Shown here in pieces: positions 7,377 through 47,199 of a stretch of 64,000 bases of DNA. A model generated the notes under the pieces. That model did no database searches and was not told the DNA's origin. It worked only from the letters and a program-made list of their open reading frames with translations. Both the position numbers and the translations under genes were made by a program. The stretch comes from Sulfuricaulis sp. (lineage in GTDB: Bacteria; Pseudomonadota; Gammaproteobacteria; Acidiferrobacterales; Sulfurifustaceae), in the NCBI GenBank assembly GCA_030650525.1, contig JAUSDQ010000096.1:1-64000 (forward strand). Direction: 5' to 3'. The first letter of the stretch is position 1; each line of letters opens with the position of its first letter.

Positions 7377-9041
7377 CTAGCGCTTGACCAGCACCCCGGC
7401 GGCCTCGCGGTCCCAGGCTTGGCTGATGTCGCGCTCCAATTCCTGCTTGATCCGGAATTTCTCGATCTTCTGGTTCACTGTGGTGGGGAGTTCATCCCGG
7501 AGCTGAATGTAGCGAGGAACCATGAAGTACGACATATTGCGCTGGCAATGCTCAATGATGTCTTTGTGGTCCAGTGTCCGACCCTCATGCTTGACGATCA
7601 CGGCCGCCACCTCCTCGTCATTGGTGGCGGTGGTCACAGCAACAACGGCGACCTGAGCCACGTCGGGGTGGCGCATCAGAATTTGTTCAACTTCAAAGGC
7701 GGAGATGTTTTCCCCGCGTCGCCGAATGCAGTCTTTCTTCCGGTCCACAAACCAGATGTAGCCATCCTCGTCGCGGATGCCCCGGTCGCCGGTGTGGAAC
7801 CATTGATTTCGGTGTGCGACCAGTGTCGCCTCCGCCATTCTGTAGTAGCCCAGGGCGGCCCGCCAGGGCTCATCACAGCGAAGCACGATCTCGCCCGCCT
7901 GGCCGTGGGGCAACTCGAAGTCATGGTCATCCACGATCTTGACTTGACTGCCACGCCGGGGCCTGCCGATGGAGCCCAGCTTTGTTTTCGGATCCAGGCT
8001 GGTGTAGGAGGTAGCCATTCCAAAATCGGAGAGCCCATAGTTGCTCATCACGTCGAGCCCGAAGCGCTCCTCGAAATCACGTGCGTACTTGGGAACCGGT
8101 GCCATGCTAATCAGGCGCAGCTTGTTGTCCCGATCATCGGCTTGAGGGGGTACGCTCCAGAGGAAACTTGTCATCGCCCCCAGCAAATTCGTGATGGTCG
8201 CGCCCGAGTCGCGGATATCGGACCAGAAATGGGTCACCGAGAAGCGGCGCGACAGCACCACCGAGGCGCCGCACACCAGCGCGGACCCCAGGGAAGCCAA
8301 CAGTGCATTGTTGTGGAACAAGGGCAAGCAGACATAAAAAACATCCGACGTCCGGTAAGACTGCGCCTCGGCGGCCCCGGTCCCATATGTCAGCGCGGCC
8401 GCGTGGCTCAGCATGCTGGCCTTGGACGGGCCGGTCGTGCCGGAGGTAAAGGCCAGCATCAGCAGGTCGTGGCATTTGATTTCGGTGTCAGGCGGCTCGG
8501 CTTGCGCGCCTTCCAGCATCGCTTGGAAGTCATGCAGGTCAAGCGATCGCCTTGCCGTCCATGTTCCGACGTCTTCCTGGTGGTCGCCGACAACGACAAT
8601 CCGCGCGAGCAATGGAAGCTCGGCCAGTATCTCGCCCAATCGACCCAGCAGCGAAGCATCGACGATGACCGTTGTGCATTCCGATTGCGACAGGTAGTAC
8701 CGCAACAACTCGCCACGGGCCGCGGTATTGACCGGCACGGATACCGCGCCAATCTTTCCAATGCCAAAGAAGGCGGCGACGTGCTCCGCCGAGTTCTCCA
8801 TGAGCACGCCGACATGACTGCCATGCCTCACCCCGATTTGCCGCAGGGCGTTCGCCACGCGGCCGCACCACAAATCCATTTCGCGGTAGGTGAATGTTCG
8901 GCCCGTCCAAAGTTCATTGAGGAAAACCTTGTCGGCAAATTGCCGGGCCTGCCGTTGCCAGACACGCGGGATTGTCAGCTCGATCAGGGGAAGCGATTCA
9001 GGGTCGAATGCATCCATGAGAGGGGTGCTTTGAGTGGTCAT
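7377..9041 (-). CDS. AMP-forming acyl-CoA ligase, CaiC-like
   Basis: ANL-family ligase (554 residues) that activates a carboxylic acid with ATP and CoA. The P-loop is FTSGTTGPSKASM, the adenylate motif is NYGLSDFG, the hinge region is HTGDRGIRDEDGY followed by DRKKDCIRRRGENIS, and QKIEKFRIK holds the C-terminal catalytic lysine. The RRRGENIS form is common in crotonobetaine/carnitine-CoA ligase-like enzymes. I start at 9041 (MTTQSTPLMD); the open frame reaches 9188, but that would run through the promoter at 9127-9155. The start has no strong Shine-Dalgarno, and an ATG at 9017 is an alternative. It leads an operon with the tctC gene at 6228. Confidence 0.87.
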   Translation of the reverse strand: MTTQSTPLMDAFDPESLPLIELTIPRVWQRQARQFADKVFLNELWTGRTFTYREMDLWCGRVANALRQIGVRHGSHVGVLMENSAEHVAAFFGIGKIGAVSVPVNTAARGELLRYYLSQSECTTVIVDASLLGRLGEILAELPLLARIVVVGDHQEDVGTWTARRSLDLHDFQAMLEGAQAEPPDTEIKCHDLLMLAFTSGTTGPSKASMLSHAAALTYGTGAAEAQSYRTSDVFYVCLPLFHNNALLASLGSALVCGASVVLSRRFSVTHFWSDIRDSGATITNLLGAMTSFLWSVPPQADDRDNKLRLISMAPVPKYARDFEERFGLDVMSNYGLSDFGMATSYTSLDPKTKLGSIGRPRRGSQVKIVDDHDFELPHGQAGEIVLRCDEPWRAALGYYRMAEATLVAHRNQWFHTGDRGIRDEDGYIWFVDRKKDCIRRRGENISAFEVEQILMRHPDVAQVAVVAVTTATNDEEVAAVIVKHEGRTLDHKDIIEHCQRNMSYFMVPRYIQLRDELPTTVNQKIEKFRIKQELERDISQAWDREAAGVLVKR

Positions 9042-17511: not shown

Positions 17512-18750
17512 TCACGTCAGATAGGCAGCGGCCTTGCCGCGGTTCGCCTTGCTTCGACGAATCTCGTTGCGCGCCACCGACCGCAGGTGCACCTCGTCGG
17601 GGCCGTCCGCCACGCGTAGCGCGCGTCCGACCGTCCACAGGCGCGCCAGCGGCGTGTCTTGTGACAAGCCCATGGCGCCGAATGTTTGCATCGCCCGGTC
17701 CAACACCGTGGTGTGCAGCCGTGCCGCGATGATCTTGATCATGGATATCTCACTCGCCGCGCCCTTCGCGCCCCCGTTGTCGATCATCCATGCGGCCTTG
17801 AGCACCAGCATGCGCGCCTGTTCGATCTCGCAACGTGACAGTGCGATCCACTCCGCGACGTTGGCGTGCTCATACAGATACTTGCCAAAGGTCTTGCGCT
17901 CTTGGGCCCGCTGGCACATGAGTGTCAGCGCCATCTCACAGGCACCGATGGAGCGCATGCAGTGGTGAATGCGACCCGGACCGAGGCGCGCCTGCGACAT
18001 CATGAAGCCACCACCCTCTGGGCCCAGCAGATTGGCGCGCGGCACACGCACGTTGCGGTACAGCACCTCGGCATGGCCGTAGGGCGTTAAATGATTCATC
18101 ACCTTCATGGGGCGGACCATTGTGATGCCAGGTGTGTCGGTCGGCACGATGAGCATGCTCTGGCGCTCGTGAGCGGCGGCATCGGGATTGGTGACGCCCA
18201 TCACGATATGGAGTTTGCAGCGCGGGTCGGCGCCGTTCGTGATGAACCACTTGCGGCCGTTCACGACATAGTCGTCGCCGTCCCGGCGAATCGTGGTCGC
18301 GATGTTGGTCGCGTCCGATGAGGCGACATCTGGCTCGGTCATGGAAAAAGCTGAACGGATATTCCCCTCGAGCAGCGGGTTCAACCACTTGCCACGCTGG
18401 TCGGGCGTGGAAAACAGATGCAGCAGTTCCATGTTGCCGGAATCGGGAGAGCTGCAGTTGAACACTTCCGCAGCCCAGATCACGGCGCCGGTGATCTCCG
18501 CGATTGGCGCATATTCAAAATTGCTTAACCGGGTGCCGGGCTCGTCGTCGCGCAGCGCGGGAAGAAACATGTTCCACAGTCCCTGCGCCTTGGCTTTTGC
18601 CTTCAGGTCTTCCAGCATGCGAGGCGGGTGCATGCCCTCTTCAACATCCGCGATCCACTGCTTGTTGGCCGGCAAGATGTGCTGATCCATGAAGTCCCGA
18701 ACCTGAACCTGAAGCTGTTTGACTTTAGGCGAAAAGTTGAAAAATTCCAT
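17512..18750 (-). CDS. Acyl-CoA dehydrogenase, ACAD11/LvaC-like
   Basis: 412-residue ACAD of the ACAD10/ACAD11 branch, not a short-chain type. FSMTEPDVASSDATNI, NGRKWFITNGADPRCK, ARLGPGRIHHCMR and VADGPDEVH closely follow human ACAD11. In this branch the ACAD acts together with an aminoglycoside-kinase-fold enzyme on 4-hydroxyacyl-CoAs: the kinase phosphorylates the 4-hydroxyl and the ACAD drives its removal (LvaA and LvaC in levulinate catabolism). A gene for such a kinase lies divergently at 19054, and one operator sits between them, which supports a joint role. An ordinary 2,3-dehydrogenation remains possible. Confidence 0.88.
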   Translation of the reverse strand: MEFFNFSPKVKQLQVQVRDFMDQHILPANKQWIADVEEGMHPPRMLEDLKAKAKAQGLWNMFLPALRDDEPGTRLSNFEYAPIAEITGAVIWAAEVFNCSSPDSGNMELLHLFSTPDQRGKWLNPLLEGNIRSAFSMTEPDVASSDATNIATTIRRDGDDYVVNGRKWFITNGADPRCKLHIVMGVTNPDAAAHERQSMLIVPTDTPGITMVRPMKVMNHLTPYGHAEVLYRNVRVPRANLLGPEGGGFMMSQARLGPGRIHHCMRSIGACEMALTLMCQRAQERKTFGKYLYEHANVAEWIALSRCEIEQARMLVLKAAWMIDNGGAKGAASEISMIKIIAARLHTTVLDRAMQTFGAMGLSQDTPLARLWTVGRALRVADGPDEVHLRSVARNEIRRSKANRGKAAAYLT

Positions 18751-19053: not shown

Positions 19054-20109
19054 ATGAACACAACATCTTCCATGCCGGTTGACCTGAACGTCCTGGCGCG
19101 CTGGATGGATCAGCAGGGGCTGGAGAGGGGCACCATCACGCAGGCGCGACTGCTGACCGGTGGCACGCAAAACATCCTGCTGCGCTTTCGCCGCGGCGAG
19201 CGCGACTTCGTGCTGAGGCGTCCCCCATTGCATGTGCGCCCGGAACACAACCGGACCATGCAGCGCGAGGCGCGTGTGCTTACGGCGCTGGCCGTGAGCG
19301 AGGTGCCGCATCCGGCCCTCGTGGCGACTTGCGCCTCGGACGATGTGCTCGGCGCAGCCTTCTATCTGATGGAGCCGGTGGACGGATTCAATCCCGTGGT
19401 CGGTCTGCCCAGCCTGCATGCGGGTAGCGCGACGATACGCCACGAGATGGGCGTGGCGATGGTCGACGCCAGCCTTGCGCTTGCCCGCTTCGACTACGTC
19501 GCCGCGGGCCTGACCGACGTTGGCAAACTGGACGGTTATCTTGAGCGACAGGTGCAGCGTTGGCGCACGCAACTCGAGTCCTATCGCGACTACCAAGGAT
19601 GGCCCGGCGCGGGCGATATTCCCGGCATCGATGCGGTCGGTCAATGGCTCGATCAACACCGGCCCGGTGGCTTTGTCCCTGGCCTGGTCCACGGCGACTT
19701 CCATTTGGCGAATGCGATGTTCCGTTTCGACAGTGGGCGCCTGGCAGCCCTGGTCGATTGGGAGCTGTCGACCATTGGCGACCCGCTGTTTGATTTTGGC
19801 TGGCTACTGGCGACCTGGCACGTGCCTGGCCAGTCTTGCGCCGCCAGCCTGCGCGTCGAGCCCTGGAACGGATTTCCCAGCGTGCAGGAACTGATCGGGC
19901 GCTACCAGGCCGGCACGCAGCGCGACACGTCGGACATCCACTGGTATGCCGTGCTCGCCTGCTACAAGCTGGGGATCGTGCAGGAAGGCAGCTACGCGCG
20001 CGCTTTCGCCGGCAAGGCTTCGCCCGACGTCGGTGCGCGCCAGCATGCCTCCGCGGTCGCTCTGTTCCAACGTGCCCAGGCCTGGATTGAGCACGGATTA
20101 CCCCAATAA
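19054..20109 (+). CDS. Kinase-fold protein, LvaA/ACAD10-type
   Basis: Phosphotransferase of the aminoglycoside/choline kinase fold, 351 residues. LVHGDFHLANAMF carries the catalytic Asp and the Mg-binding Asn, and LVDWELSTIGDPLFDFGW carries the second metal Asp. LTGGTQNILLRFRR and FVLRRPP form the N-lobe with the ATP-binding lysine region. Members next to ACAD genes phosphorylate the 4-hydroxyl of hydroxyacyl-CoAs and are not antibiotic-resistance enzymes. It is divergent from an ACAD11-like gene, and its nearest paralogue at 46138 follows another ACAD of that branch. Pathway placement is by context. Confidence 0.87.
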   Translation: MNTTSSMPVDLNVLARWMDQQGLERGTITQARLLTGGTQNILLRFRRGERDFVLRRPPLHVRPEHNRTMQREARVLTALAVSEVPHPALVATCASDDVLGAAFYLMEPVDGFNPVVGLPSLHAGSATIRHEMGVAMVDASLALARFDYVAAGLTDVGKLDGYLERQVQRWRTQLESYRDYQGWPGAGDIPGIDAVGQWLDQHRPGGFVPGLVHGDFHLANAMFRFDSGRLAALVDWELSTIGDPLFDFGWLLATWHVPGQSCAASLRVEPWNGFPSVQELIGRYQAGTQRDTSDIHWYAVLACYKLGIVQEGSYARAFAGKASPDVGARQHASAVALFQRAQAWIEHGLPQ

Positions 20110-26437: not shown

Positions 26438-27295
26438 CTACGGTGCTCCCAGCACTTTCCAAGCGGCGCTGACGTTCATCAAGGGCTTGCCCGCGCTGTG
26501 GAAGCGGCCATCGACAAACACCACCGAGGGCGTGGCGAGTTGGACGTGGGTCTCGAAGTCAACCAAGGCACCGTGCCGGGCCTCGCCCAGGCGGCGCGCC
26601 TGCACCCCCAGCGTGACACACATGCGGCGGTCAGACGCGCGCACTGCCGCCCGGCCGGTGAACAGGTCGGCCATAAACAGCAGCATGCCATCATGCACCG
26701 AGCCCAGACCATGCTGATCAAGCAGGTGGTCATCGACCGTAAAGCGGATCACATGCGCGCCCTCGTCCAGGCCGCGCTCGAACAGCGGACCGACGTGCAA
26801 TCCAAACGGATCCTTGGTTTGCACGCGCGTCCAGCCATCCGCCGCGTCCGGCTCCCAACGCTCCGAGGCGACCGACTCGACGACATCAACGGCCGCGGCG
26901 GGGGCCTCAATTTTGTAAATGGCGCTGGCGTTGGTCAGCAGCGTCTCGTTGGCGAAAAGGCGACAGCTCAAGAACAAGACCGAGCGGGTGGCCCGGGTCA
27001 CGCTGACTTCCGCGATGACCTGGGCGCCGGTTTCAACCGAGCCCACGAACTCGCTGTTGAGCGACAGCAGCGGCGCCGTGGACCCGGGTGCGGCGCGGGC
27101 CGCCAATTCCGCCGCGACCTGCCCCATGGAGATGGAGAGCAGCGTCAGCACCATGCCGCCGTGGAAGCGTCCGGCAAAGTTCACGTGATGGGTGTCCAGT
27201 TGCAGCCGGAAGCGGTAACCCTCCTCGCCAGCGACGCGGAACACGGGTCCGGTGTGGTGTGCAAACCCGTTGGTTGCTAGCAGCACCGCCCTCAT
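26438..27295 (-). CDS. Tandem hotdog acyl-CoA thioesterase-like protein
   Basis: Two hotdog domains in one chain of 285 residues. The first has VNFAGRFHGGMVLTLL (about 39-54) and the second QHGLGSVHDGMLLFMADL (about 193-210); both resemble the PaaI-type HGG/HDG helix start. It should hydrolyse an acyl-CoA, either to release CoA from dead-end intermediates or to give a free acid product. Its ATG overlaps the stop of the CoA-transferase gene by four bases (ATGA), a sign of translational coupling. It is the last gene of the five-gene minus-strand operon that starts with the ligase at 31583. Confidence 0.8.
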   Translation of the reverse strand: MRAVLLATNGFAHHTGPVFRVAGEEGYRFRLQLDTHHVNFAGRFHGGMVLTLLSISMGQVAAELAARAAPGSTAPLLSLNSEFVGSVETGAQVIAEVSVTRATRSVLFLSCRLFANETLLTNASAIYKIEAPAAAVDVVESVASERWEPDAADGWTRVQTKDPFGLHVGPLFERGLDEGAHVIRFTVDDHLLDQHGLGSVHDGMLLFMADLFTGRAAVRASDRRMCVTLGVQARRLGEARHGALVDFETHVQLATPSVVFVDGRFHSAGKPLMNVSAAWKVLGAP

Positions 27296-28572
27296 GTTTG
27301 AACCGCCTGTGCCGCGCCCCGCGCGGGCTCGCCCAGCGCCCCGCTCAGCGCCAACTCGGCCAATGCCGCGTCGTCTAGCTTGAGCAGCGAGTGCAGCACT
27401 TCCCTGGTGTGCTGGCCCAGCGTCGGCGCCGCCACCGGATCGACCACCGGCGTGAGGCTAAGGCGATAGGGCGGCGCCACATTGGGCACGGTGCCCGCGG
27501 TGGGGTGCGGGATTTCACTAAGCAGGCCGCGTTCGCGCATGTCCGCGCCGGAGAAGGCTTCGGCAATCGTCGCCACTGCCCCGACGGGTACGCCAGCGGC
27601 GCGCATTTTATCGATCCAATGATCGCGTGTGTTTGTCGCCAGGATGGCGCGCACGATGTCGTTGAAACCATCAAAGTTGGCCAAGCGCGCCGCGAGGTTG
27701 GCGTACTCCGGACCGTCGGCCAAATCGGCTCGGCCAAAAACATCCAGCGCGAGTCGGCGATAGGTGCGCTCGTTGGCGCAGCATAGGTAGATCGGTCCGG
27801 TGGCGGTCGGATAGACCCCCACCGGGGTGTTGGCGCGACCCATGTTGCCCACCCGTGGCGGCTCGATGCCGGTGGCCAGGTAGCCGATGGCCCGGTAGCT
27901 GACCAACTGCGCCGCCTGGTCGAACATCGCGATTTCGATGTACTGCCCCTGGCCCAGACGCTCGCGCGCGGCCAAGGCCGCCAGAATGGCGTTGCTGGCC
28001 ATCATCCCGGTGGTGATGTCCATGATGGGCGCGCCGGCCACCACACCGTCGCTGTCCGGATGGCCGTTGATCGCCATGAAACCGCTTTCCGCCTGAGCAA
28101 TCGGATCGAACCCCATGCGCTGCGCCATGGCGCCGTCACGTCCCGCGGCGGAGATCGAGCAGTAGATCAGGCGCGGATTGCGCGCCGAAAGCTCGGCGTA
28201 GCCCAGACCCAGGCGGTCCATCACTCCGGTCGAAAAATTCTCGACCAGCACGTCGGCCTGATCGATCAGGGCCAGCGCGATATCGCGTCCCGCCGGCAGG
28301 CTTACATCCAGTGCCAGGCCGCGTTTGTTGCGGTTGGTCCACAGGTAGGCGGCGCCTTCGCCGCCCAAGGCCGGGGGCCGGTGCAAGCGGATGTTGTCGC
28401 CTACCACCGGGTTTTCAATTTTCAACACGTCGGCGCCGAAGTCACCCAGGATCAGCGTGCAGTAAGGCCCGGCAACGAAGTGGCTGAAGTCGATCACGCG
28501 CAGGCCGGCCAGTGCCGTGGCGGCACCGGCCGGGCGCGCCTGGTGAGGGGGAAGAACAGGGCGTTCGGCCAT
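27292..28572 (-). CDS. CaiB/BaiF family III CoA-transferase
   Basis: 426 residues. RVIDFSHFVAGPYC is the CoA-binding N-terminus and GAPIMDITTGMMA holds the catalytic Asp that carries the CoA thioester. It lacks the His of the racemase group, so transfer of CoA from one acid to another is the likely role (formyl-, carnitine- or mesaconyl-CoA transferase type). I start at MAERPVLPP (28572), where a GGGGG run lies nine bases upstream; longer in-frame starts pass through a CA repeat. It is the fourth gene of the ligase-kinase-small protein operon and is coupled to the thioesterase downstream. Confidence 0.86.
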   Translation of the reverse strand: MAERPVLPPHQARPAGAATALAGLRVIDFSHFVAGPYCTLILGDFGADVLKIENPVVGDNIRLHRPPALGGEGAAYLWTNRNKRGLALDVSLPAGRDIALALIDQADVLVENFSTGVMDRLGLGYAELSARNPRLIYCSISAAGRDGAMAQRMGFDPIAQAESGFMAINGHPDSDGVVAGAPIMDITTGMMASNAILAALAARERLGQGQYIEIAMFDQAAQLVSYRAIGYLATGIEPPRVGNMGRANTPVGVYPTATGPIYLCCANERTYRRLALDVFGRADLADGPEYANLAARLANFDGFNDIVRAILATNTRDHWIDKMRAAGVPVGAVATIAEAFSGADMRERGLLSEIPHPTAGTVPNVAPPYRLSLTPVVDPVAAPTLGQHTREVLHSLLKLDDAALAELALSGALGEPARGAAQAVQT

Positions 28573-28634: not shown

Positions 28635-29021
28635 TCAGTGTCCTGTCGGAGTGGTGGATTTTGGATCGGAGACGATCCATTTTGGATTATTGATGGCCAG
28701 CGTGTCGCGCAGCGTTAGGCGCAGGTGCTCAAGCAGGCCGCCCGAGTTCAGCGGCAGACTGCCTGCGGCGATCGCCGTGGCCAGTTCGGCGTTCAGTACG
28801 GTCAGCTCGCCCTCGTGTCCCAGCAACTGGACCAGACGTTGTCGCTCCTTACTCTCAAGTGCGCTGCGCTGCTGCAGTTCGCGCAGCACCGTGCGCAGCA
28901 CGTTGATGCTCACGCGGGTCTGGAAGCGGTGATACCCCTCCAGCGTCGGCAGCAGTTCCTGCTCGAAATAGTCGGTGGTGGCTTGCAGCAACGTGGCGGC
29001 GTCGGGAACGAAAGTAGTCAT
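28635..29021 (-). CDS. Small helical protein, DUF6285/LvaB-like
   Basis: 128 residues, predicted mostly helical. LLQATTDYFEQELLPTLEGYHRFQTRV followed by a long Arg/Glu-rich helix resembles the DUF6285 family, which is found next to kinase-fold and ACAD genes. Its ATG lies two bases before the end of the kinase gene stop codon, so the two are translationally coupled. By size and position it corresponds to LvaB, the small partner of the kinase LvaA in levulinate catabolism. The family assignment is from memory of the pattern and should be tested by profile search. Confidence 0.7.
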   Translation of the reverse strand: MTTFVPDAATLLQATTDYFEQELLPTLEGYHRFQTRVSINVLRTVLRELQQRSALESKERQRLVQLLGHEGELTVLNAELATAIAAGSLPLNSGGLLEHLRLTLRDTLAINNPKWIVSDPKSTTPTGH

Positions 29022-29022
29022 C

Positions 29023-30030
29023 TCAGTGGCCTCCTGCGGTAGTTTCGAGCAGCGCGAAAAAGTCCCACAGCGGCTCTTCGAGGCGACGGCCGATGGCGCA
29101 CATTTCGACGCCGGCCGCTCGGCCATCGGACTTGGTGGCCAGGCCGCGACGCACGCAACTGATGGCCCATTTGAGATTGGAAAAAGCCTCCCAGAAACGC
29201 ACCCGTTCGGGATCCACGGACGCGCCGCCGCCGGCTTCGTAGGCCGCATACAGGTCTTCGCGCCGGCCAAAGCCGCCCACCGGCAAGGCGCCGCTAAAGC
29301 CCCAGGTGCGCATGCACAACACGCCCAAATCCTGCATCGGGTCGCCGATGCGTGCGATCTCCCAGTCCAGCACGCAACGCACGCCCTCGGGGCCCACGAT
29401 CAGGTTGCCGGTGCGAAAGTCGGCATGTACCAAGGCCGGTTTCCAGGTGCCGGGCAAATGATCCTGCACCCAGCGCAGCGCGTAGGCCAGCGCGGGGTGC
29501 TGGAGTTGGTACGGCGTCAACAATCCGCCGTAGATGGCCAGTTCGTCGGCCGGTGACAGCGTGGCCAGAAACGGCAGCTCCGCGGTCGGCAGGCGGTGGA
29601 TCGCGGCCAGGATCGCGCCGCATTGGCTTGCCATGTTCGCACGCGCCGCGGCGAAGGCATCGTCTTGCACAATGCGCCGACCCAGGGTCTCGCCCTCGAC
29701 GCGTTCGGTGACATAGCCGCCGCCCAGGCCGTCCTCGGGCTGCAAAATGACGCGCACCACGGGGGCGGGCACGCCACCGGCGCGCGCGGCCATCATGAGC
29801 AGCGCGTCCTGCTCGGCGCTGAGCTTGGGCGCGCGGTTGGCCGTTGCCACCGCCGCCGGAGTCTGCTGCAGGATCAGTGGCTGCGTTTGTCCCTCGCCGA
29901 CGAGGTCAAAAGCCCAGGTCTGTTTGGTGGCGCCACCCGTCAGGCGCTTGAGGTTTTGCACCGTGCCGCGCAGTTGGCCGTGGCGGTTCAGGGCGGCGCT
30001 GAGCGCGACGGCGACGTCGTCGGTTTTCAT
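29023..30030 (-). CDS. Kinase-fold protein, LvaA/ACAD10-type
   Basis: 335 residues with the aminoglycoside-kinase fold. LVHADFRTGNLIVG stands at the catalytic loop, where the usual HGD is HAD, with the Asp and Asn kept, and CVLDWEIARIGDPMQDLG is the second metal motif. RLTGGATKQTWAFDLV is the N-lobe glycine-rich turn. It diverges from the two other kinase genes (19054, 46138), which are closer to each other. It follows the ligase by 23 bases and overlaps the small-protein gene, giving the order ligase-kinase-small protein seen in lva-type clusters. Confidence 0.86.
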   Translation of the reverse strand: MKTDDVAVALSAALNRHGQLRGTVQNLKRLTGGATKQTWAFDLVGEGQTQPLILQQTPAAVATANRAPKLSAEQDALLMMAARAGGVPAPVVRVILQPEDGLGGGYVTERVEGETLGRRIVQDDAFAAARANMASQCGAILAAIHRLPTAELPFLATLSPADELAIYGGLLTPYQLQHPALAYALRWVQDHLPGTWKPALVHADFRTGNLIVGPEGVRCVLDWEIARIGDPMQDLGVLCMRTWGFSGALPVGGFGRREDLYAAYEAGGGASVDPERVRFWEAFSNLKWAISCVRRGLATKSDGRAAGVEMCAIGRRLEEPLWDFFALLETTAGGH

Positions 30031-30053: not shown

Positions 30054-31583
30054 CTAGATGCTGCGTCCGGCGGCCTGCCAGAAGGGGTCGCGCAGGCGGC
30101 GCTTGAAGATCTTGCCGCTGTCTTCGCGCGGCAGGCTGGCGTGGAAGTCCACCCGGCGTGGTAGTTTGTACTTGGCCAGGTGCTCGCCGAGGTAGTCCTT
30201 GATCTGCTGGGCCGTGAGCGTGACGCCTGGCATGGTCTCCACCGCGGCGGCCAGTGACTCGCCCAGATCATCATCCGGGATGCCGAACACCGCGCAGTCA
30301 TGCACGCCGGGGCATTGCAGCAGCACCATCTCAATTTCCGCCGGGTAGATGTTCACGCCCGCGGAGATCACCATGTCGGAGCGCCGGTCGCACAGGTAGA
30401 GATGGCCGTCCTTCAGGTAGCCGACGTCGCCCACGCTGATCAATCCGTCCCGTTCCACGCCGCTGCGCTTGCTCTCGTTGTTTAGGTAGGTGAAGTCGGC
30501 GTAGGCCGGCACCCGCATGTAGATCTCGCCGATTTCACCCAGCGGGAGCTGCTTGCCGTCCTCGCCATAGAACGCGATGCGCGTGCCCGGCGTGGGCACG
30601 CCGACGCTGCCGGGGTAGGCCCGTGCATCTTCGGGGGTGGCCAGCGTGGCGGTGCCGACTTCCGTTCCGCCATAGGTCTCGTAGACCACCGGCCCCCACC
30701 AGGCCATCAGCGCCTTCTTTACGTCGACGGAGCAGGGCGCACCGGTGTGTGTGACCCACTGCAAGGAACTGACGTCATAGCGTGCGCGCACCTCGGCCGG
30801 CAGCTTGAGCAGGCGCACGAACATGGTCGGCACCATCACGGCATGGGTGATGCGGTGCTTGTCTATCATGGCCAGCGTTTCTTCCGGGTCGAACTTGGAC
30901 TGCAGCACCAGCACCTCGGCATTGGGCAGCGCCTGGCGGCCATAGGCATTGGGCGAGGCGTGGTACAACGGCCCGGCCACCAGCGCACGCACGCCGGGTT
31001 TCAGGCCGTAGACGCGCTGCAGCATCTCCATGTAGGCGGCCGACTGTTCCGGCGTGGCGGCTTCCCGCTTGACCCCCTTGGGGTGCCCGGTCGTGCCGGA
31101 GGTGTAGATCATGGTGGCGCGACTGCGCTTGGGCGCATCGCTCCAGGGCTCGAAGCCGGCGCACCAGTCGGGCCACACCGTGTCGCCAGCGGCCGGTTGG
31201 GCCTGTTCGGTGGTGAGGTGGTAGTGGCGTTGGATCTGGGGCGGAGTCGGCACCACCAACACCTTCAACCCGGCGGGAATCTGGTCACGCAAGGGTGCCA
31301 GCAGGTCGGCGTGGGCGACCAGCACCTTCGGGCGCGCGTCGTCCAGGACGTAGCGCACTTCCTCGGCCTTGCCATGCCAGTTGATGGGTACACAATAGGC
31401 CCCAACCATCGCCGCCGCTTGTTGCGCCTCGAAGAAGGCAAAGTCGTTGCGCAGCAGCAGCGCGACGATGTCGCCTTCCTGCACGCCCAGCTTGTCGAAA
31501 CCGCGCGCCGCACGGCGGGCTTGTAGCAAGACGGTCTCACGTTCGATGGCGTGCTCATCAAGGTATATTAAAGCGGAAGTCAT
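30054..31583 (-). CDS. AMP-forming acyl-CoA ligase
   Basis: 509 residues. YTSGTTGHPKG is the P-loop, YETYGGTEVG the adenylate site, CDRRSDMVISAGVNIYPAEIE the hinge and DSGKIFKRRLRDPFW the lysine loop. The SGK-FKR-LRD-W ending and the absence of a long N-terminal lead group it with the ligase at 42403, not with those at 21450 or 62875. I chose 31583 (MTSALIYLDE); the frame extends to 31688, but the operator and promoter region lies there. It is the first gene of the five-gene operon. Confidence 0.89.
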   Translation of the reverse strand: MTSALIYLDEHAIERETVLLQARRAARGFDKLGVQEGDIVALLLRNDFAFFEAQQAAAMVGAYCVPINWHGKAEEVRYVLDDARPKVLVAHADLLAPLRDQIPAGLKVLVVPTPPQIQRHYHLTTEQAQPAAGDTVWPDWCAGFEPWSDAPKRSRATMIYTSGTTGHPKGVKREAATPEQSAAYMEMLQRVYGLKPGVRALVAGPLYHASPNAYGRQALPNAEVLVLQSKFDPEETLAMIDKHRITHAVMVPTMFVRLLKLPAEVRARYDVSSLQWVTHTGAPCSVDVKKALMAWWGPVVYETYGGTEVGTATLATPEDARAYPGSVGVPTPGTRIAFYGEDGKQLPLGEIGEIYMRVPAYADFTYLNNESKRSGVERDGLISVGDVGYLKDGHLYLCDRRSDMVISAGVNIYPAEIEMVLLQCPGVHDCAVFGIPDDDLGESLAAAVETMPGVTLTAQQIKDYLGEHLAKYKLPRRVDFHASLPREDSGKIFKRRLRDPFWQAAGRSI

Positions 31584-31766: not shown

Positions 31767-32636
31767 TCACGGCCGGTAGCCCGGATCCTGCCACCATGGA
31801 TAGGCCGCGGGCATGTCCGTGCTCACGCGGCAGCTAAATTGTGGCGCGCGTTTCTCGAGGAACGATGCCACGCCCTCGCGTGCGTCGGCCGAGGCGCCGC
31901 GGTCGGCGATCGCCTCGCTTTCGATGCGATTGGCCTGCATGGGGTGGTCGGCGCCGAGCATGCGCCACATCATCTGACGCGTCAGCGCCACCGAAACCGG
32001 CGCGGCGTGGTCCACGATTTCGTGCGCCAAGGCCTGCGCGCGCTCCAGCAATTGTTCGGGTGCACAGACCTCGCGCAGCAGGCCGCCGGCGGCGGCCTCG
32101 GCGGCCGGCAGCAGGCGGCCGGACAGGCTCCATTCGAGCGCACGGGAAATGCCGACCACGCGCGGCAAAAACCAGCTGGCGCAGGCGTCGGGAACGATCC
32201 CGCGACGCGCGAAAACGAAGCCGATACGCGCCTCGGTGCTGGCGATGCGAATGTCCATCGGTAGCAGCATTGATGCGCCTATGCCCACCGCCGCGCCATT
32301 GACGGCCGCGATCAGTGGCTTCTTGCTGGCGAACAGGCGCAGCGCCAGCATGCCACCCCCATCGCGCCCGGGGTCTTCCTCGGCTGGCTGGTGCGCGGGG
32401 TCGAAAGACTCGGCGCCGCCTGACAGATCGAAGCCGGCGCAAAACGCGCGGCCGTTGCCCGTGAAAACGACGGCGCGTACCGCGTCGTCGGCATCCGCCA
32501 GATCCAGCGCATGGCATAACTCACGCCGCATGGTTTTCGTCATCGCGTTCATTGCCTGGGGCCGGTTCAGGGTCAGGGTCAGCACCGGCCCGCTGCGTTG
32601 CCAGAGCAAGGTTTCGAAGTTGGGCGACGCTGTCAT
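31767..32636 (-). CDS. Enoyl-CoA hydratase/isomerase family protein
   Basis: 289 residues. GNGRAFCAGFDL is the oxyanion-hole block. VGIGASMLLPMDIR has no Glu at the first catalytic position, while FARRGIVPDACASWFLPRVVG carries Asp where related proteins have Glu (RGIVPEA-SSWFLPR). This variant is common in clusters with two-subunit ACADs and may hydrate or isomerise bulky enoyl-CoAs. A C-terminal tail of about 30 residues (STDMPAAYPWW) is an extension. Its start overlaps the stop of the ACAD beta gene by four bases, so the three genes are one operon. Confidence 0.86.
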   Translation of the reverse strand: MTASPNFETLLWQRSGPVLTLTLNRPQAMNAMTKTMRRELCHALDLADADDAVRAVVFTGNGRAFCAGFDLSGGAESFDPAHQPAEEDPGRDGGGMLALRLFASKKPLIAAVNGAAVGIGASMLLPMDIRIASTEARIGFVFARRGIVPDACASWFLPRVVGISRALEWSLSGRLLPAAEAAAGGLLREVCAPEQLLERAQALAHEIVDHAAPVSVALTRQMMWRMLGADHPMQANRIESEAIADRGASADAREGVASFLEKRAPQFSCRVSTDMPAAYPWWQDPGYRP

Positions 32637-33766
32637 AGCAGCTCCGCCAGGCGGGCGCCGTGCGCGTCGCAGTCACCGAACATCTGGTCCAGCACATGGA
32701 TGCGGCGCAAGTAATGCCCCACCGCGTATTCCTCCGTCACGCCGATGCCGCCGTGGAGCTGGATGGCCGCTTGGCACAGTGTGCGAGCGTGGCGACCGAT
32801 CACCAGCTTGGCGCGATGCAGGTCGGCGCCCGAGTCCTCGGCATCGGGCCGGTCCGCCGCCATGGCAGCGGCGATCGCCATGCTGCGGCTGACCTCCAGG
32901 CTGACCAGCATTTCGGCGGCGCGGTGGCGCAACGCCTGGTTCTCGCCAATGAATCGGCCAAACTGCTGGCGTGTGTTCAGGTAGTTCACGGCCAGTGCAT
33001 AGGCCGCCTCCATGGCACCCACCATGTCGGCGCAAACAGCGGCGATACCCACGGCCAGCGTGCCTTCGATCGCTGCCCGTGCCTTGGCGGAATCGCCTGG
33101 GTCGCCCAGCGGCAAGGCCGCCACATTCTGCAAGCGCAATTCACCCGCCGGCGTGTCGTCGTACAAGCGGTGGCTGCGCAATTGCAGACCGCTTGCCCGC
33201 GCGTCGACGAGAAACAGGGCGCGCCCCTCGCGGTCGCCCGGCGCCCCGGACACCCGCGCGCTGACCACATGGTGCTGGGCCGCGGCGGCATGCAGCACGT
33301 TGAGCTTGGCGCCGTCAAGCACCCAGCCGCTCTCCTGCGCCGTGGCCTTGGTTTCCAGCCAGTACGGCGCGTGGCGGGCCCCGGCTTCGTCGTGCGCCCA
33401 GGCCAGCAGTGTTTCGCCCACCGCCAGCGACGGCAAAATGCGCTGCTGGGTTGCGTCATCCGCAGCCAGCCTGAGCGCCGTGGCGCCGAGCACGCTGGAG
33501 GCGAGGAACGGCTCCAGCAAGAGGGCGCGACCGAATTCCTGCATCACGGGCATCAGGTCGACGGCGCCGCCGCCAAAGCCGCCATGCGCCGGGGCGATCG
33601 GTAGCGCGGTGATGCCCAATGCGACCAGTTGCCGCCACACGGCGGGGCTGTGGCCCTCGGCGCTGGCCGCGATGGCGCGTCGCTGCTCGAAGCCGTAGTG
33701 GTCCGCCAGCAAGCGAGCCACGCTGTCGCGCAGCGCGCGTTGCTCTTCATTCAGTTCGAAGTTCAT
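32633..33766 (-). CDS. Two-subunit acyl-CoA dehydrogenase, FadE27-like subunit
   Basis: 377 residues. The ACAD fold is recognisable (MNFELNEEQRALRDSVARLL, QFGRFIGENQALRH, QLHGGIGVTEEYAVGHYLRR), but a catalytic base is missing at both usual places, as in FadE27-type subunits. In mycobacterial steroid side-chain degradation such a subunit forms an alpha2beta2 enzyme with a FadE26-type partner and shares FAD sites. The partner gene at 33779 lies 12 bases upstream. A near copy of the whole pair is at 58515-60822, with identical protein lengths. Confidence 0.88.
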   Translation of the reverse strand: MNFELNEEQRALRDSVARLLADHYGFEQRRAIAASAEGHSPAVWRQLVALGITALPIAPAHGGFGGGAVDLMPVMQEFGRALLLEPFLASSVLGATALRLAADDATQQRILPSLAVGETLLAWAHDEAGARHAPYWLETKATAQESGWVLDGAKLNVLHAAAAQHHVVSARVSGAPGDREGRALFLVDARASGLQLRSHRLYDDTPAGELRLQNVAALPLGDPGDSAKARAAIEGTLAVGIAAVCADMVGAMEAAYALAVNYLNTRQQFGRFIGENQALRHRAAEMLVSLEVSRSMAIAAAMAADRPDAEDSGADLHRAKLVIGRHARTLCQAAIQLHGGIGVTEEYAVGHYLRRIHVLDQMFGDCDAHGARLAELL

Positions 33767-33778
33767 GTTCTCTCCTTG

Positions 33779-34939
33779 TTAGCCAACGATGGCCTTGGCC
33801 AGGATGTCTTTTTGCACCTCGGTGGTTCCACCGTAGATGCTGGCGGCGCGTGAGTGGAAATAGCGCGCCGTCAGCGGGCCGTGGGTCCGGTCGTCGCCGG
33901 ATCGCAATTCCAGCCCTTGCGGCCCCGCCAGGCGCGCCAGCAGCGCGGCGATGTCCTGCTGCAGTTCCGTGCCCTTGATCTTGAGTACCGACGCGAAGGC
34001 CGGTAGCGCCTGCTGCGCGCTGTCGGTGAGAAGGAAGCGCCAGTTCGTCAGCTCCAGCGCGCGCAGTTCCGCGTCGAGCACGGCCAGCTCGCCGCGCAGC
34101 TTGGGATCTTCGATGAGGGGCTTGCCCCCCTGCGTGTAGCGCGTTGCCAGCTCGCGTGCGTAGCCCAGGCGTTCACGGCACAGGCCGACATTGGCGATGC
34201 CGGTGCGTTCGTTGCCCAGCAGAAACTTGGCGCAGGACCAACCTTTGTTCTCCTCGCCCACGAGGTTCTCAACCGGTACCCGCACGTCGTCGAAGAACAC
34301 CTCATTGAGGATGTGGTCATGATCAATGGAGCGGATCGGGCGGATGGTGATGCCTGGTGTCTTCAAGTCGATCAGCAGGAAAGAAATGCCTTCCTGCTTG
34401 CGTGCCTCGGTGCTGGTGCGCACCAGGGCGAAGACCCAATCTGACTGGTGTGCGTTGGATGTCCAGATTTTCTGACCGTTGACGACGTAGTGGTTGCCCT
34501 CGCGCTTGGCCGCGGTGCGCAGCGCAGCCAGGTCCGAGCCAGCGCCTGGCTCGGAGAAACCCTGGCAGAACCAGAGGTCCAGGTTGACCAGCTTGGGCAG
34601 GAAGTAGTCGCGCTGCGCCGGGGTTCCGAATTTCATCAGCACCGGGCCGAGCAGGACGACGTTCATCAACTGCGGCAAGGGCGCGGATGCCCGGTACATC
34701 TCGTCGAGCAAGATGAGTCGCTCCATCTGTCCGAGCTCCGCGCCCCCGAACTCCCGTGGCCAGCTCGGCGCCGCCCAGCCCCGCTCGTTCAGAATGCGCT
34801 GCCAGGTAACGATGTCCTGCTTGGTTGGAGGATAGCCCAGTCGCAGCCGTTCCTGGATGCTGGCCGGCAGCCTGGTCTGGATGAAAGCGCGCACCTCGTC
34901 GCGGAAGGCGTGCTGTTCAGGGCTTAGTTCGAAGTCCAT
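33779..34939 (-). CDS. Two-subunit acyl-CoA dehydrogenase, FadE26-like subunit
   Basis: 386 residues and first gene of the operon. GFSEPGAGSDLAALRT and NGQKIWTSNAH are the flavin loop signatures. The C-terminal motif is YGGTTEVQKDILAK with Gly where medium-chain enzymes have Glu. LLGNERTGIAN places a Glu on the helix used as base by FadE26-type subunits. Substrates of such heteromers are usually bulky acyl-CoAs, for example steroid or isoprenoid side chains. AAAGGAAA stands before the ATG. An operator lies 57 bp upstream in the gap shared with the SDR at 35084. Confidence 0.9.
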   Translation of the reverse strand: MDFELSPEQHAFRDEVRAFIQTRLPASIQERLRLGYPPTKQDIVTWQRILNERGWAAPSWPREFGGAELGQMERLILLDEMYRASAPLPQLMNVVLLGPVLMKFGTPAQRDYFLPKLVNLDLWFCQGFSEPGAGSDLAALRTAAKREGNHYVVNGQKIWTSNAHQSDWVFALVRTSTEARKQEGISFLLIDLKTPGITIRPIRSIDHDHILNEVFFDDVRVPVENLVGEENKGWSCAKFLLGNERTGIANVGLCRERLGYARELATRYTQGGKPLIEDPKLRGELAVLDAELRALELTNWRFLLTDSAQQALPAFASVLKIKGTELQQDIAALLARLAGPQGLELRSGDDRTHGPLTARYFHSRAASIYGGTTEVQKDILAKAIVG

Positions 34940-44054: not shown

Positions 44055-44792
44055 ATGAACGACATCCTGAGATACGACGGCAAGAATGTGTTGGTCGTTG
44101 GCGGCACCAGCGGCATTGGCAACGGCATAGCGCAATCGTTTCTTGCCGCCGGCGCGACGGTGCATGTCTGGGGCACCCGGCCGAGCGCCGCGGACTACCG
44201 CGCCGACGAAGGCAGTCGGCTTGAAGGCCTGAACTTCTCTCGGGTTGATGTATCTGACGCCGCGGCGATCCATGCTTTTCGTCCGCCCTTTGACCGGCTT
44301 GATGTGCTCGTTCTGGCGCAAGGCGCGGTTGAATATCGACGCGCGGAATTCGAGGACAAGGGTTTTCGTCATGTGGTGGACGTGAATCTGAACAGCCTGA
44401 TGAGCTGTGCCAGCCTGTTTCACCCCATGCTCAAGGCTGCTCAGGGTTCAATGATCATCGTCAGTTCCATTGGTGCCTATAAGGCGGCCATCGGCACGCC
44501 GGCCTATGCGGCATCGAAAGCTGGGGCCATGTCGCTGACGCGCTCCCTGGGCGCGGCCTGGATCGGCGACGGCATCCGCGTCAACGGCATCGCCCCCGGC
44601 CTGGTGGCGACCAAGATGACCAAGGTCACGACCGATCATCCGCAGCGGCTGCAAGGAACCCTGGCACGCATTCCGGCGGGGCGCATCGGCACACCGCAAG
44701 ACATGGCCAATGTCGCGCTGTTCCTGGCCTCCCCGCTGGCGACGTACGTCGTCGGTCACACCATTCCCGTCGATGGCGGGCTTAGCGCTTGA
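44055..44792 (+). CDS. Short-chain dehydrogenase/reductase
   Basis: 245 residues. GGTSGIG (16-22) binds the nucleotide; the NNAG motif is replaced by LAQG (87-90). Ser137/138, Tyr151 and Lys155 (YAASK) complete the site, so the enzyme should be active. PGLVATKM and PVDGGLS are normal. It is the first gene of an operon with an ACAD11-like gene, a kinase gene and a TetR gene, which places it as the likely hydroxyacyl-CoA dehydrogenase of an lva-like module (compare LvaD). Confidence 0.86.
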   Translation: MNDILRYDGKNVLVVGGTSGIGNGIAQSFLAAGATVHVWGTRPSAADYRADEGSRLEGLNFSRVDVSDAAAIHAFRPPFDRLDVLVLAQGAVEYRRAEFEDKGFRHVVDVNLNSLMSCASLFHPMLKAAQGSMIIVSSIGAYKAAIGTPAYAASKAGAMSLTRSLGAAWIGDGIRVNGIAPGLVATKMTKVTTDHPQRLQGTLARIPAGRIGTPQDMANVALFLASPLATYVVGHTIPVDGGLSA

Positions 44793-44822: not shown

Positions 44823-46121
44823 ATGAGCTGGGGATTTGATACCGACCCTGAGTTCCAGAAGGAACTCGACTGGATTGACGAATTTGTGCGCAACGAGATC
44901 GAGCCGCTCGATATGCTGCTCGACAGCCCGTACGACGTGACGCTGCCGGAGCGCAACCGGCTGGTCAAGCCGCTCCAAAAGATCGTGCGCGAGCGCAAGC
45001 TGTGGGCCTGCCACCTGGGCCCGGAACTGGGCGGCCAGGGCTACGGCCAGCTCAAACTGGCGCTGATGAACGAAATCCTCGGCCGTTCGGTATTCGCGCC
45101 GACCATCTTCGGCTGCCAGGCGCCTGATTCGGGCAACGCCGAGATCCTGGCGCACTACGGCACGCCGGAACAGAAGAAGAAGTATCTGGAGCCGCTGCTG
45201 GACAACGAAATCGTGTCCACTTTTGCCATGACCGAGCCCCAGGGTGGCGCGGACCCCCTGATTTTGACCACGCGCGCCGAGCGCGACGGCGACCACTGGG
45301 TGATCAATGGCGAGAAGTGGTTTGCCTCGACCGCGAATTTCGCGTCCTTCTTCATCACCATGGTGGTCACCGATCCCAATGTTTCGGCCTACAAGGGCAT
45401 GTCCATGTTCATCGTGCCGGCCGGTACCCCCGGGCTCGAGATGGTGCGCGATGTGCATCTGGCCGGACGCAAGTACAACAACCGCGGCCACGGCCACGGC
45501 TACATGCGCTACACCAACGTGCGTGTACCGGCGGATCACCTGCTGGGCGGCGAGGGCAATGCCTTTGTCGTGGCGCAGACCCGGCTTGGTGGCGGGCGCA
45601 TCCACCACGCGATGCGCACCATTGGCGAGGCGCGCAAGGCCTTTGCGATGATGTGCGAACGCGCGGTCTCGCGCCAACTCAAGCGCGGCCGCCTGGCCGA
45701 CAAGCAACTGGTCCAGGCCATGATCGCCGACTCGTGGATTGAGCTCGAACAGTTCCGTCTGCTGGTGCTGCGCACTGCATGGCTGATCGACAAGCACAAC
45801 GACTACAAGCTGGTGCGCAAGGACATCTCCGCCGTCAAGGCTGCCATGCCCAAGGTGTTGCACGACATCGTGGCGCGCGCGATCCAGATCCATGGCTCGC
45901 TCGGCCTCACCAACGAGATGCCGCTGGTCGAACAACTGGTGTCGTCCTTCGTCATCGGGCTGGCCGACGGTCCGACCGAGGTGCACAAGATCACACTGGC
46001 CAAGGAGTTGTTGAAAATGGTCACACCGTCCACCGAGCTGTTCCCGGCCTACCATCTGCCGGCGCGGCGTGCCCGTGCGCTGGCGAAGTACGGCCCCGTG
46101 GACAAGACCGCCGGACTCTGA
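44823..46121 (+). CDS. Acyl-CoA dehydrogenase, ACAD11/LvaC-like
   Basis: 432 residues with AAGGAGAA before the ATG. FAMTEPQGGADPL, TRLGGGRIHHAMRTIG and LADGPTEVHK place it in the ACAD10/ACAD11 branch together with the gene at 17512. INGEKWFASTANFASF is the flavin-loop region. The kinase gene follows after 16 bases, the best linkage in the window for a kinase-ACAD pair that removes a 4-hydroxyl through a phospho intermediate. The N-terminal 30 residues are acidic (WGFDTDPEFQKELDWIDEFV), as in this branch. Confidence 0.88.
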   Translation: MSWGFDTDPEFQKELDWIDEFVRNEIEPLDMLLDSPYDVTLPERNRLVKPLQKIVRERKLWACHLGPELGGQGYGQLKLALMNEILGRSVFAPTIFGCQAPDSGNAEILAHYGTPEQKKKYLEPLLDNEIVSTFAMTEPQGGADPLILTTRAERDGDHWVINGEKWFASTANFASFFITMVVTDPNVSAYKGMSMFIVPAGTPGLEMVRDVHLAGRKYNNRGHGHGYMRYTNVRVPADHLLGGEGNAFVVAQTRLGGGRIHHAMRTIGEARKAFAMMCERAVSRQLKRGRLADKQLVQAMIADSWIELEQFRLLVLRTAWLIDKHNDYKLVRKDISAVKAAMPKVLHDIVARAIQIHGSLGLTNEMPLVEQLVSSFVIGLADGPTEVHKITLAKELLKMVTPSTELFPAYHLPARRARALAKYGPVDKTAGL

Positions 46122-46137
46122 CACACCGGCCGCACGT

Positions 46138-47199
46138 ATGGATCCCTTGCAGGCCACGGACTGGCACGATTTGGTCGACTTTCAACGTTTAACGCGCTGG
46201 ATGGACGAGCGCGGACTCGGGCGGGGCCAGATCGAGGGGGCGACGCTGCTGGCCGGTGGCACGCAGAACCTTTTGCTCAAACTGCGTCGTGGTGAGCTCG
46301 AATTCGTGCTGCGGCGTCCGCCCCGGCACTTGCGTGCGAACAGCAACGAAACTATGGCGCGTGAGGCCAAAGTACTGGCGGCCCTGGCCGGCAGCGACGT
46401 GCCCCATCCCGACTTGATCGCGGCATGCACCGACACCGAGGTGCTGGGTGCTGCGTTCTACCTGATGAAGCCGGTCGATGGTTTCAATGTGACCAGTAGC
46501 GGGCTGCCGGCCCTGCACGCCGCCGATCGGGCGGTGCGCCGGCGCATGGGCTTCGCGATGGTGGATGCCATTACAGCGCTTGGCGCCATCGATCCGGCGG
46601 CAGTCGGTCTGAGCGACTTTGGCCGCCCGGACGGCTTTCTTGAACGGCAGGTGCCACGCTGGCGCAAGCAGCTCGAGAGCTATGCTGCCTGCGCCGGTTG
46701 GCCGGGCGCGGGTGCCATACCGGAGGTGCAGCAGGTGGCGGATTGGCTCGAAACCCATCGCCCGCTTTACTTCACGCCCGGTATCCTGCACGGTGACTTT
46801 CACCTCGCCAATGTGATGTTCCGCCATGACTCGGGGGAGTTGGCCGCGGTGGTCGATTGGGAGCTCGCCACCTTGGGCGACCCGTTGCTCGATCTCGGCT
46901 GGATGCTTGCCACCTGGCCGCGGCCCGACGGCAGCCACCACGCCAACCTGGGTATCCACCCCTGGGATGGCTTCCCGGTCGCCGAGGAACTGATCGAGCG
47001 CTATGCCCAGCGTACTACGCGAGACATGACCGCCATCCGCTGGTATGCGGTACTGGCCTGCTACAAGCTGGGCATTATTCTTGAGGGCAGTTTTGCGCGC
47101 GCTTGCGCCGGCCAGGCGCCAGTCGAGATCGGACAGCGATTGCACCGGTCGACGCTCGGCCTGTTTCGTCGCGCGGCGGACTGGATTGAGCACAGCTGA
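46138..47199 (+). CDS. Kinase-fold protein, LvaA/ACAD10-type
   Basis: 353 residues and the closest paralogue of the protein at 19054: both share WMDxxGL-RG, LLAGGTQN or LLTGGTQN, FVLRRPP, LGAAFYLM-PVDGFN and WDGFPV or WNGFPS blocks. ILHGDFHLANVMF and VVDWELATLGDPLLDLGW are the catalytic and metal motifs. I start at 46138; the open frame extends upstream but overlaps the ACAD gene. It follows the ACAD closely and precedes the TetR gene in the same operon. Confidence 0.87.
   Translation: MDPLQATDWHDLVDFQRLTRWMDERGLGRGQIEGATLLAGGTQNLLLKLRRGELEFVLRRPPRHLRANSNETMAREAKVLAALAGSDVPHPDLIAACTDTEVLGAAFYLMKPVDGFNVTSSGLPALHAADRAVRRRMGFAMVDAITALGAIDPAAVGLSDFGRPDGFLERQVPRWRKQLESYAACAGWPGAGAIPEVQQVADWLETHRPLYFTPGILHGDFHLANVMFRHDSGELAAVVDWELATLGDPLLDLGWMLATWPRPDGSHHANLGIHPWDGFPVAEELIERYAQRTTRDMTAIRWYAVLACYKLGIILEGSFARACAGQAPVEIGQRLHRSTLGLFRRAADWIEHS

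Follow-up and report, generated by a model that had tools for sequence, protein, structure and literature searches.

A DUF6285 (LvaB-family) protein as the probable second subunit of an APH-fold kinase in an acyl-CoA operon of Sulfuricaulis sp.

The operon and its kinase-DUF6285 gene pair

The window (the whole stretch of 64,000 nucleotides that was analysed) belongs to a genome bin of Sulfuricaulis sp., which comprises 3.76 Mb in 354 contigs with a contamination of 5.8%. An LvaA-like kinase gene of the APH fold and a small gene of the DUF6285 (LvaB) family lie on the minus strand, within an acyl-CoA operon. From the upstream end, this operon contains genes for two acyl-CoA dehydrogenases (ACADs), an enoyl-CoA hydratase family protein (31767..32636; PF00378, 181.1 bits; NCBIfam PRK08260, 417.1 against a cut-off of 320), and an acyl-CoA synthetase (30054..31583, searched as 30054-31577; PF00501; NCBIfam PRK12406, 767.5 bits against a cut-off of 701), followed by those for the kinase (29023..30030; 335 aa; PF01636, 109.3 bits) and the DUF6285 protein (28635..29021; 128 aa). 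A gene for a family III CoA-transferase (27292..28572, searched as 27292-28569; PF02515, 399.2 bits) lies downstream of DUF6285 on the same strand. The first dehydrogenase (33779..34939), which is 27% identical to an lva-operon dehydrogenase, has YGGTTEVQ where the catalytic motif is expected, and the second (32633..33766; Pfam and motif) lacks the usual motif near the C terminus; the two may represent alpha- and beta-type partners, respectively.

The kinase gene ends with a TGA codon at 29025-29023, and the ATG of the small open reading frame (ORF) occupies 29021-29019. The two genes are therefore separated by a single base (29022), rather than overlapping at the stop codon as the first-pass annotation had stated; an overlap of 4 nt at this junction was found in two lva operons elsewhere, according to their annotated coordinates. 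An AGGAGG sequence is located 8 nt ahead of the ATG on the minus strand. A longer version starting at a TTG codon (211 aa) represents just an open frame extending back into the kinase gene. In the genome-wide search, the DUF6285 profile matched positions 28677-28949, and because this match falls wholly within the 128-aa frame, the ORF is more than a chance one.

The assignment to DUF6285, previously proposed by pattern, was borne out by the profile search, in which the ORF matched PF19802 with 98.9 bits (cut-off, 28.1) and its residues 25-115 were aligned with profile positions 1-91, that is, with the whole profile. Five residues (Pro6, Leu11, Arg47, Gly87, and Pro113 in the window numbering) are conserved in 91, 92, 96, 91, and 98% of 196-200 aligned sequences, respectively, and all are retained in the window protein, which has Ala in the column of Arg85 (82% Arg). 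No NCBIfam family was named for the protein at E 0.01; FosC, the best match at E 10 (E 0.12), was taken as a chance hit. Neither DUF6285 nor PF19802 is mentioned in the literature that was searched. The AlphaFold2 model (mean pLDDT, 90.2) is all-helical, with helices at residues 8-26, 29-67, 73-86, 94-111, and 113-117. Searches of PDB sequences yielded best E values of 0.25 (profile) and 0.36 (single sequence), and Foldseek returned no match at E <= 0.001. A known fold was not assigned either, as the best VIA-align Z score (6.4) lies within the range of helical models without kinship.

The kinase contains the HxDxxxxN motif and the metal-binding Asp (H202, D204, N209, and D222), the latter within a D222-W-E sequence. 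Its residue 55 is Gln, in a column of paired kinases (VLR/VLK strand) in which Arg or Lys accounts for 193 of 199 residues. The window kinase shares this Gln with L054, L144, and L055, the three sequences most closely related to it, and two further exceptions are found in L244 and L279. Position 55 is presumably the strand residue that holds ATP in the APH fold, and the use of ATP by the window kinase could be weakened or altered.

The window kinase shares 61-67% identity with the kinases of closely related loci in Variovorax and Cupriavidus metallidurans. Variovorax locus L054 retains the order of the window operon (ACAD-ACAD-hydratase-synthetase-kinase-DUF6285), as does C. metallidurans locus L055, in which the hydratase was not detected. 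At the place of the CoA-transferase gene downstream of DUF6285, the former contains an ACAD gene and the latter a CoA-transferase gene on the opposite strand. A Sulfitobacter locus (L139) contains two dehydrogenases, a ligase, the kinase, and DUF6285. DUF6285 was found in none of the eight genomes of the same genus and none of the 11 genomes of the same family that were searched, and the gene in this bin may represent a recent gain or reside on a foreign contig. The tetranucleotide profile of the 20-40 kb region of the window shows correlations of 0.83-0.97 with those of eight further parts of the bin, of which two belong to the same contig, but also one of 0.96 with that of Variovorax locus L144, and is compatible with either origin.

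Linkage of DUF6285 to APH kinases and its relationship to LvaB

In searches based on DUF6285, 110 of the 111 genes outside this genome adjoin an APH kinase gene or form a fusion with one, and the sole exception (L286) begins at a contig edge. In the phylum and relatives searches, the family was found in 26 of 299 and 2 of 60 genomes, respectively (this genome being counted in both), and all 26 other DUF6285 genes are linked to an APH kinase gene (22 adjacent and 4 fused). In the search of the class of G035, which we take to be Alphaproteobacteria, 87 of 385 genomes contain the family; the 85 newly fetched genes include 70 adjacent and 14 fused ones in addition to L286, where 4 of the 84 linked genes (L215 and L238-L240), which had been filed as lone genes by the domain limits of the script, were read by hand from their coordinates. 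When the best 80 loci of a scan of named genomes with a Stutzerimonas LvaA as query were inspected, 79 were found to have DUF6285 adjoining the kinase (78 with the first DUF6285 profile and 79 with the iterated one), and the stretch of the remaining locus (L134) ends inside the kinase; this is not an independent count, because the loci were chosen by kinase similarity. Among 12 plasmid loci, which had been selected for their resemblance to the window proteins, 11 are paired. The unpaired locus is that of Nonomuraea (L058), in which the nearest kinase gene found is 5.6 kb away from the DUF6285 gene (7974-8324) on the other strand, the only such case seen. The linkage is also selective in the reverse direction: this bin contains 23 APH matches and one DUF6285 gene, and seven other genomes contain one DUF6285 gene each and 69 APH matches in all. 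L050 and L051, which duplicate L048 and L049, were not counted separately.

The two domains are fused in one frame, with the kinase first, in 19 of 199 sequences. On a FastTree tree of the 199 kinases, at least six changes between the fused and separate states are required, in which gains and losses are indistinguishable and to which a long-branch warning applies. These natural fusions are the strongest sequence evidence that the kinase and DUF6285 act as one unit. Together with the nearly exclusive linkage, they support the proposal of the first-pass annotation that the small protein would be a partner subunit of this kinase.

In the model of one natural fusion (L138; pTM, 0.70), the kinase and the helical domain are connected by a disordered linker, and the small subunit was not placed on the kinase. 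Mean-field direct coupling analysis (DCA) of 199 concatenated pairs (effective number, 140; L124 was excluded due to its fragmented kinase) ranked the best inter-protein pair eighth among all pairs, and the top inter-protein pairs are scattered across the whole kinase, defining no interface. The evolutionary distances of the two proteins are correlated (r = 0.84), which is no evidence for binding because the genes are linked.

The previously noted resemblance of the small protein to LvaB turned out to be membership in the same family. The RefSeq protein named '4-hydroxypentanoyl-CoA kinase subunit LvaB' (WP_015270461.1; lva operon, NZ_MF344569.1) and the proteins at the lvaB position in Pseudomonas putida strain 31753 (L060) and on a Stutzerimonas stutzeri plasmid, three substitutes for LvaB of strain KT2440 itself, matched DUF6285 with 85.3, 72.1, and 77.0 bits, respectively, and DUF6285 is found at the lvaB place in Pseudomonas lva operons. 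The gene order of the P. putida locus (lvaR, kinase, DUF6285, ACAD, short-chain dehydrogenase/reductase (SDR), acyl-CoA synthetase, DUF485, and symporter) agrees with the KT2440 order, lvaR-ABCDEFG, as far as the latter is given in PMC6692424. The window protein shares 33% identity (114 columns) with the named LvaB, and the window kinase shares 31% identity (308 columns) with the kinase beside it. According to the account of Rand 2017 given in PMC6692424, LvaB was pulled down with LvaA, an lvaB mutant did not grow on levulinate, and 4-hydroxyvaleryl-CoA is converted to its 4-phospho form by LvaA and LvaB.

Histidine phosphatase genes are present after or near DUF6285 in L053, L056, L057, L143, and 28 of the 78 loci of L059-L138; these counts are lower bounds, as the annotated one of L143 fell under the threshold. 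In 10 loci with a divergent arrangement of the Pseudomonas citronellolis LA18T type (L097, L100-L103, L107, L113, L115, L117, and L119), DUF6285 is located between the kinase and histidine phosphatase genes. For strain LA18T, no lvaB was reported in PMC6692424, the text of which has no entry for 07f0391 or 07f0392, located between the kinase and phosphatase genes; lvaB may thus have been overlooked in this strain.

The two other kinases of the window

The window contains two further APH kinase genes (19054..20109 and 46069..47199; Pfam), both on the plus strand. As had been noted from the sequence, neither has a DUF6285 neighbour, and the bin as a whole yielded a single DUF6285 match. The former is divergent from the gene for an LvaC-type ACAD with a DGPDEVH motif (17512-18750, minus strand), and the latter is preceded by genes for an SDR (44055-44792) and an LvaC-type ACAD with a DGPTEVH motif (44823-46121, plus strand). 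The dehydrogenases nearest to LvaC, those from loci of Stutzerimonas, Azoarcus, Massilia, and Thermus, carry a DGPxEVH motif as well. A predicted catalytic aspartate common to LvaC and ACAD10/11 has been described (PMC12440821), and in our reading it corresponds to the Asp of this motif. With two LvaC-type ACADs, each beside an unpaired APH kinase, the window appears to be an island for hydroxylated acids.

A kinase tree was constructed from 148 sequences, from which 10 were removed by hand (long branches, L008, L009, L024, L151, L162, and L165; truncated, L120, L124, L134, and L201) and the remaining 138 were thinned at >=75% identity to 82; of this genome's 22 unpaired APH matches, 11 passed the threshold for inclusion, and L058 was scored as unpaired despite the DUF6285 gene 5.6 kb away. 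Paired and unpaired kinases are split nearly cleanly on this tree, with three label changes, of which one is forced by well-supported branches (five changes, all forced, in the full set of 148). The kinases at 19054 (L011) and 46069 (L006) fall within an unpaired clade of 18 sequences (SH-aLRT, 99), and the kinase of the pair lies outside this clade, nearest to the paired sequences L054 and L055. Because the unpaired clade sits among paired sequences with midpoint rooting, gain and loss of the partner are indistinguishable.

It had also been suggested that these two kinases may be LvaB-independent. This suggestion gains support from the kinase tree, the adjacent DGPxEVH ACADs, and a report that Burkholderia pseudomallei orthologues of LvaA and LvaC replace the domains of ACAD10, in which, as far as the available part goes, no LvaB is named among the proteins used (PMC11342911). 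LvaB does not occur in the main text of two papers on ACAD10/11 (PMC11342911 and PMC12440821). LvaB independence of the 19054 and 46069 kinases is a reasonable prediction. The two kinases resemble ACAD10/ACAD11 and the bacterial kinases with an adjacent LvaC-type ACAD (as described in the available parts of PMC11342911 and PMC12440821), a group that shares with the window pair an APH-fold kinase in acyl-CoA catabolism but is devoid of DUF6285, and which the paired kinase does not resemble in this respect. Why LvaA needs LvaB while ACAD10/11 seem to need nothing could be addressed by a direct comparison within one genome, as one paired and two unpaired kinases are encoded in 64 kb.

Proposed role of the pair and alternative explanations

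We consider it likely that the small ORF encodes a DUF6285/LvaB-family protein that is an obligate second subunit of the adjoining APH-fold kinase, and that the pair acts on a substrate of the operon's own pathway, either a hydroxylated acyl-CoA or a hydroxy acid. Judging from gene linkage and fusion, the small protein is very probably a subunit of the neighbouring kinase, and the two window proteins would accordingly bind each other. The kinase and DUF6285 would be co-produced, given the start codon 1 nt past the stop codon and a strong ribosome-binding site of its own; the ligase of the operon would form a CoA ester, the pair would phosphorylate its hydroxyl group with ATP, and the chain would enter beta-oxidation after departure of the phosphate. 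The substrate is presumably a hydroxyacyl-CoA. Points that weigh against this reading are the scatter of the coevolving pairs over the kinase, Gln55, the operon's lack of an LvaC-type dehydrogenase, and the distant DUF6285 gene of Nonomuraea.

The pair itself can be regarded as a variant of LvaAB, a known system. Like the window pair, LvaAB, the 4-hydroxypentanoyl-CoA kinase of P. putida, is encoded by an APH kinase gene with a small DUF6285 gene directly behind it, in an acyl-CoA operon that includes a CoA ligase (available parts of PMC6692424, PMC9399607, PMC9628823, PMC11342911, and PMC12440821). The identity between the two systems is, however, about one-third, and, of the LvaC-type ACAD, LvaD-type SDR, LvaE-type ligase, LvaF (DUF485), and LvaG symporter of the lva operon, the window operon shares only the ligase in kind. 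Unlike LvaAB, the window pair resides beside two other ACADs, an enoyl-CoA hydratase, and CoA-transferases, and its kinase has Gln55. A true levulinate-type LvaAB, which would phosphorylate a 4-hydroxyacyl-CoA and pass the product to an LvaC-type dehydrogenase elsewhere in the same island, is consistent with the identity of both families to those of LvaA and LvaB, and the two LvaC-type ACADs in the same 64-kb window (17512-18750 and 44823-46121) make a remote partner conceivable. We nevertheless regard it as rather unlikely, since sequence identity to the tested LvaA and LvaB is just 31-33%, each of these ACADs already has its own adjacent unpaired kinase, and no D-type (DGPxEVH) ACAD was found within 8.5 kb in the two Variovorax loci; matches to DUF485, the symporter, and LvaR were likewise not found within 8.5 kb in the window, where an SDR is present on the other strand only.

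Alternatively, DUF6285 might be a dedicated chaperone that helps the kinase to fold or stay soluble without being part of the active enzyme. Its small size, its all-helical model, and its translation directly behind the kinase would fit this role. However, its covalent fusion to the kinase has recurred, which is more easily reconciled with a permanent complex than with a short-lived chaperone contact, and LvaB was reportedly pulled down with LvaA (as recounted in PMC6692424), making such a role improbable. It is less probable still that the two genes share only operon ancestry, acting in the same pathway without binding. Adjacency and the distance correlation of 0.84, which is expected from linkage alone, are compatible with that explanation, but the fusion or fission changes number at least six, and the kinase-DUF6285 unit is constant while its neighbours vary (LvaC-type ACAD, other ACADs, DUF3089, or RecG). 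In the three loci examined in this regard (L178, L181, and L188), the pair adjoins RecG-like helicase, DUF502, or DUF3089 genes, and no beta-oxidation operon was recognised.

Beyond the obligate-subunit reading, what would be new is that DUF6285 marks a group of two-subunit kinases and that one branch of this group is devoid of LvaC. When ACAD types were assigned by a short C-terminal motif in the 26 loci from the searches of the phylum and of the relatives, a D-type dehydrogenase was found within 8.5 kb in 12 and not in 14, as judged from the stretches at hand, some of which extend less than 8.5 kb on one side; the window pair is therefore part of a large second group. Tentatively, and with less than even confidence, a distinct group of APH kinases may be defined by DUF6285 as its second subunit and occur well beyond the levulinate pathway; the window pair would represent a branch of it without an LvaC-type dehydrogenase. 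In this branch, the phosphate would be removed in a different, undescribed step, for which the enoyl-CoA hydratase and the unusual dehydrogenase pair of the operon are possible candidates, and, in a kinase without the usual strand arginine, the role of this arginine may have been taken over by residues of the small subunit. Such a role would assign a function to a domain of unknown function, and it suggests a rule for annotation, namely that an APH gene with a DUF6285 neighbour probably encodes a two-subunit kinase of acyl-CoA pathways.

The solved structures ranked best for the L138 fusion model are 3dxp and, in second place, the 25-hydroxy steroid kinase of Sterolibacterium denitrificans (PDB 9fsg and 9ft5), which a sequence search with the window kinase did not recover at E 0.01. 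As described in the available part of PMC8449060, this enzyme phosphorylates a hydroxyl group before its removal in a catabolic pathway and, unlike the two-gene window pair, its activity was obtained from one gene in Escherichia coli, with a 40-kDa band. Given this structural neighbour and the unusual ACAD pair, steroid side chains may be considered as a lead to the substrate of the operon.
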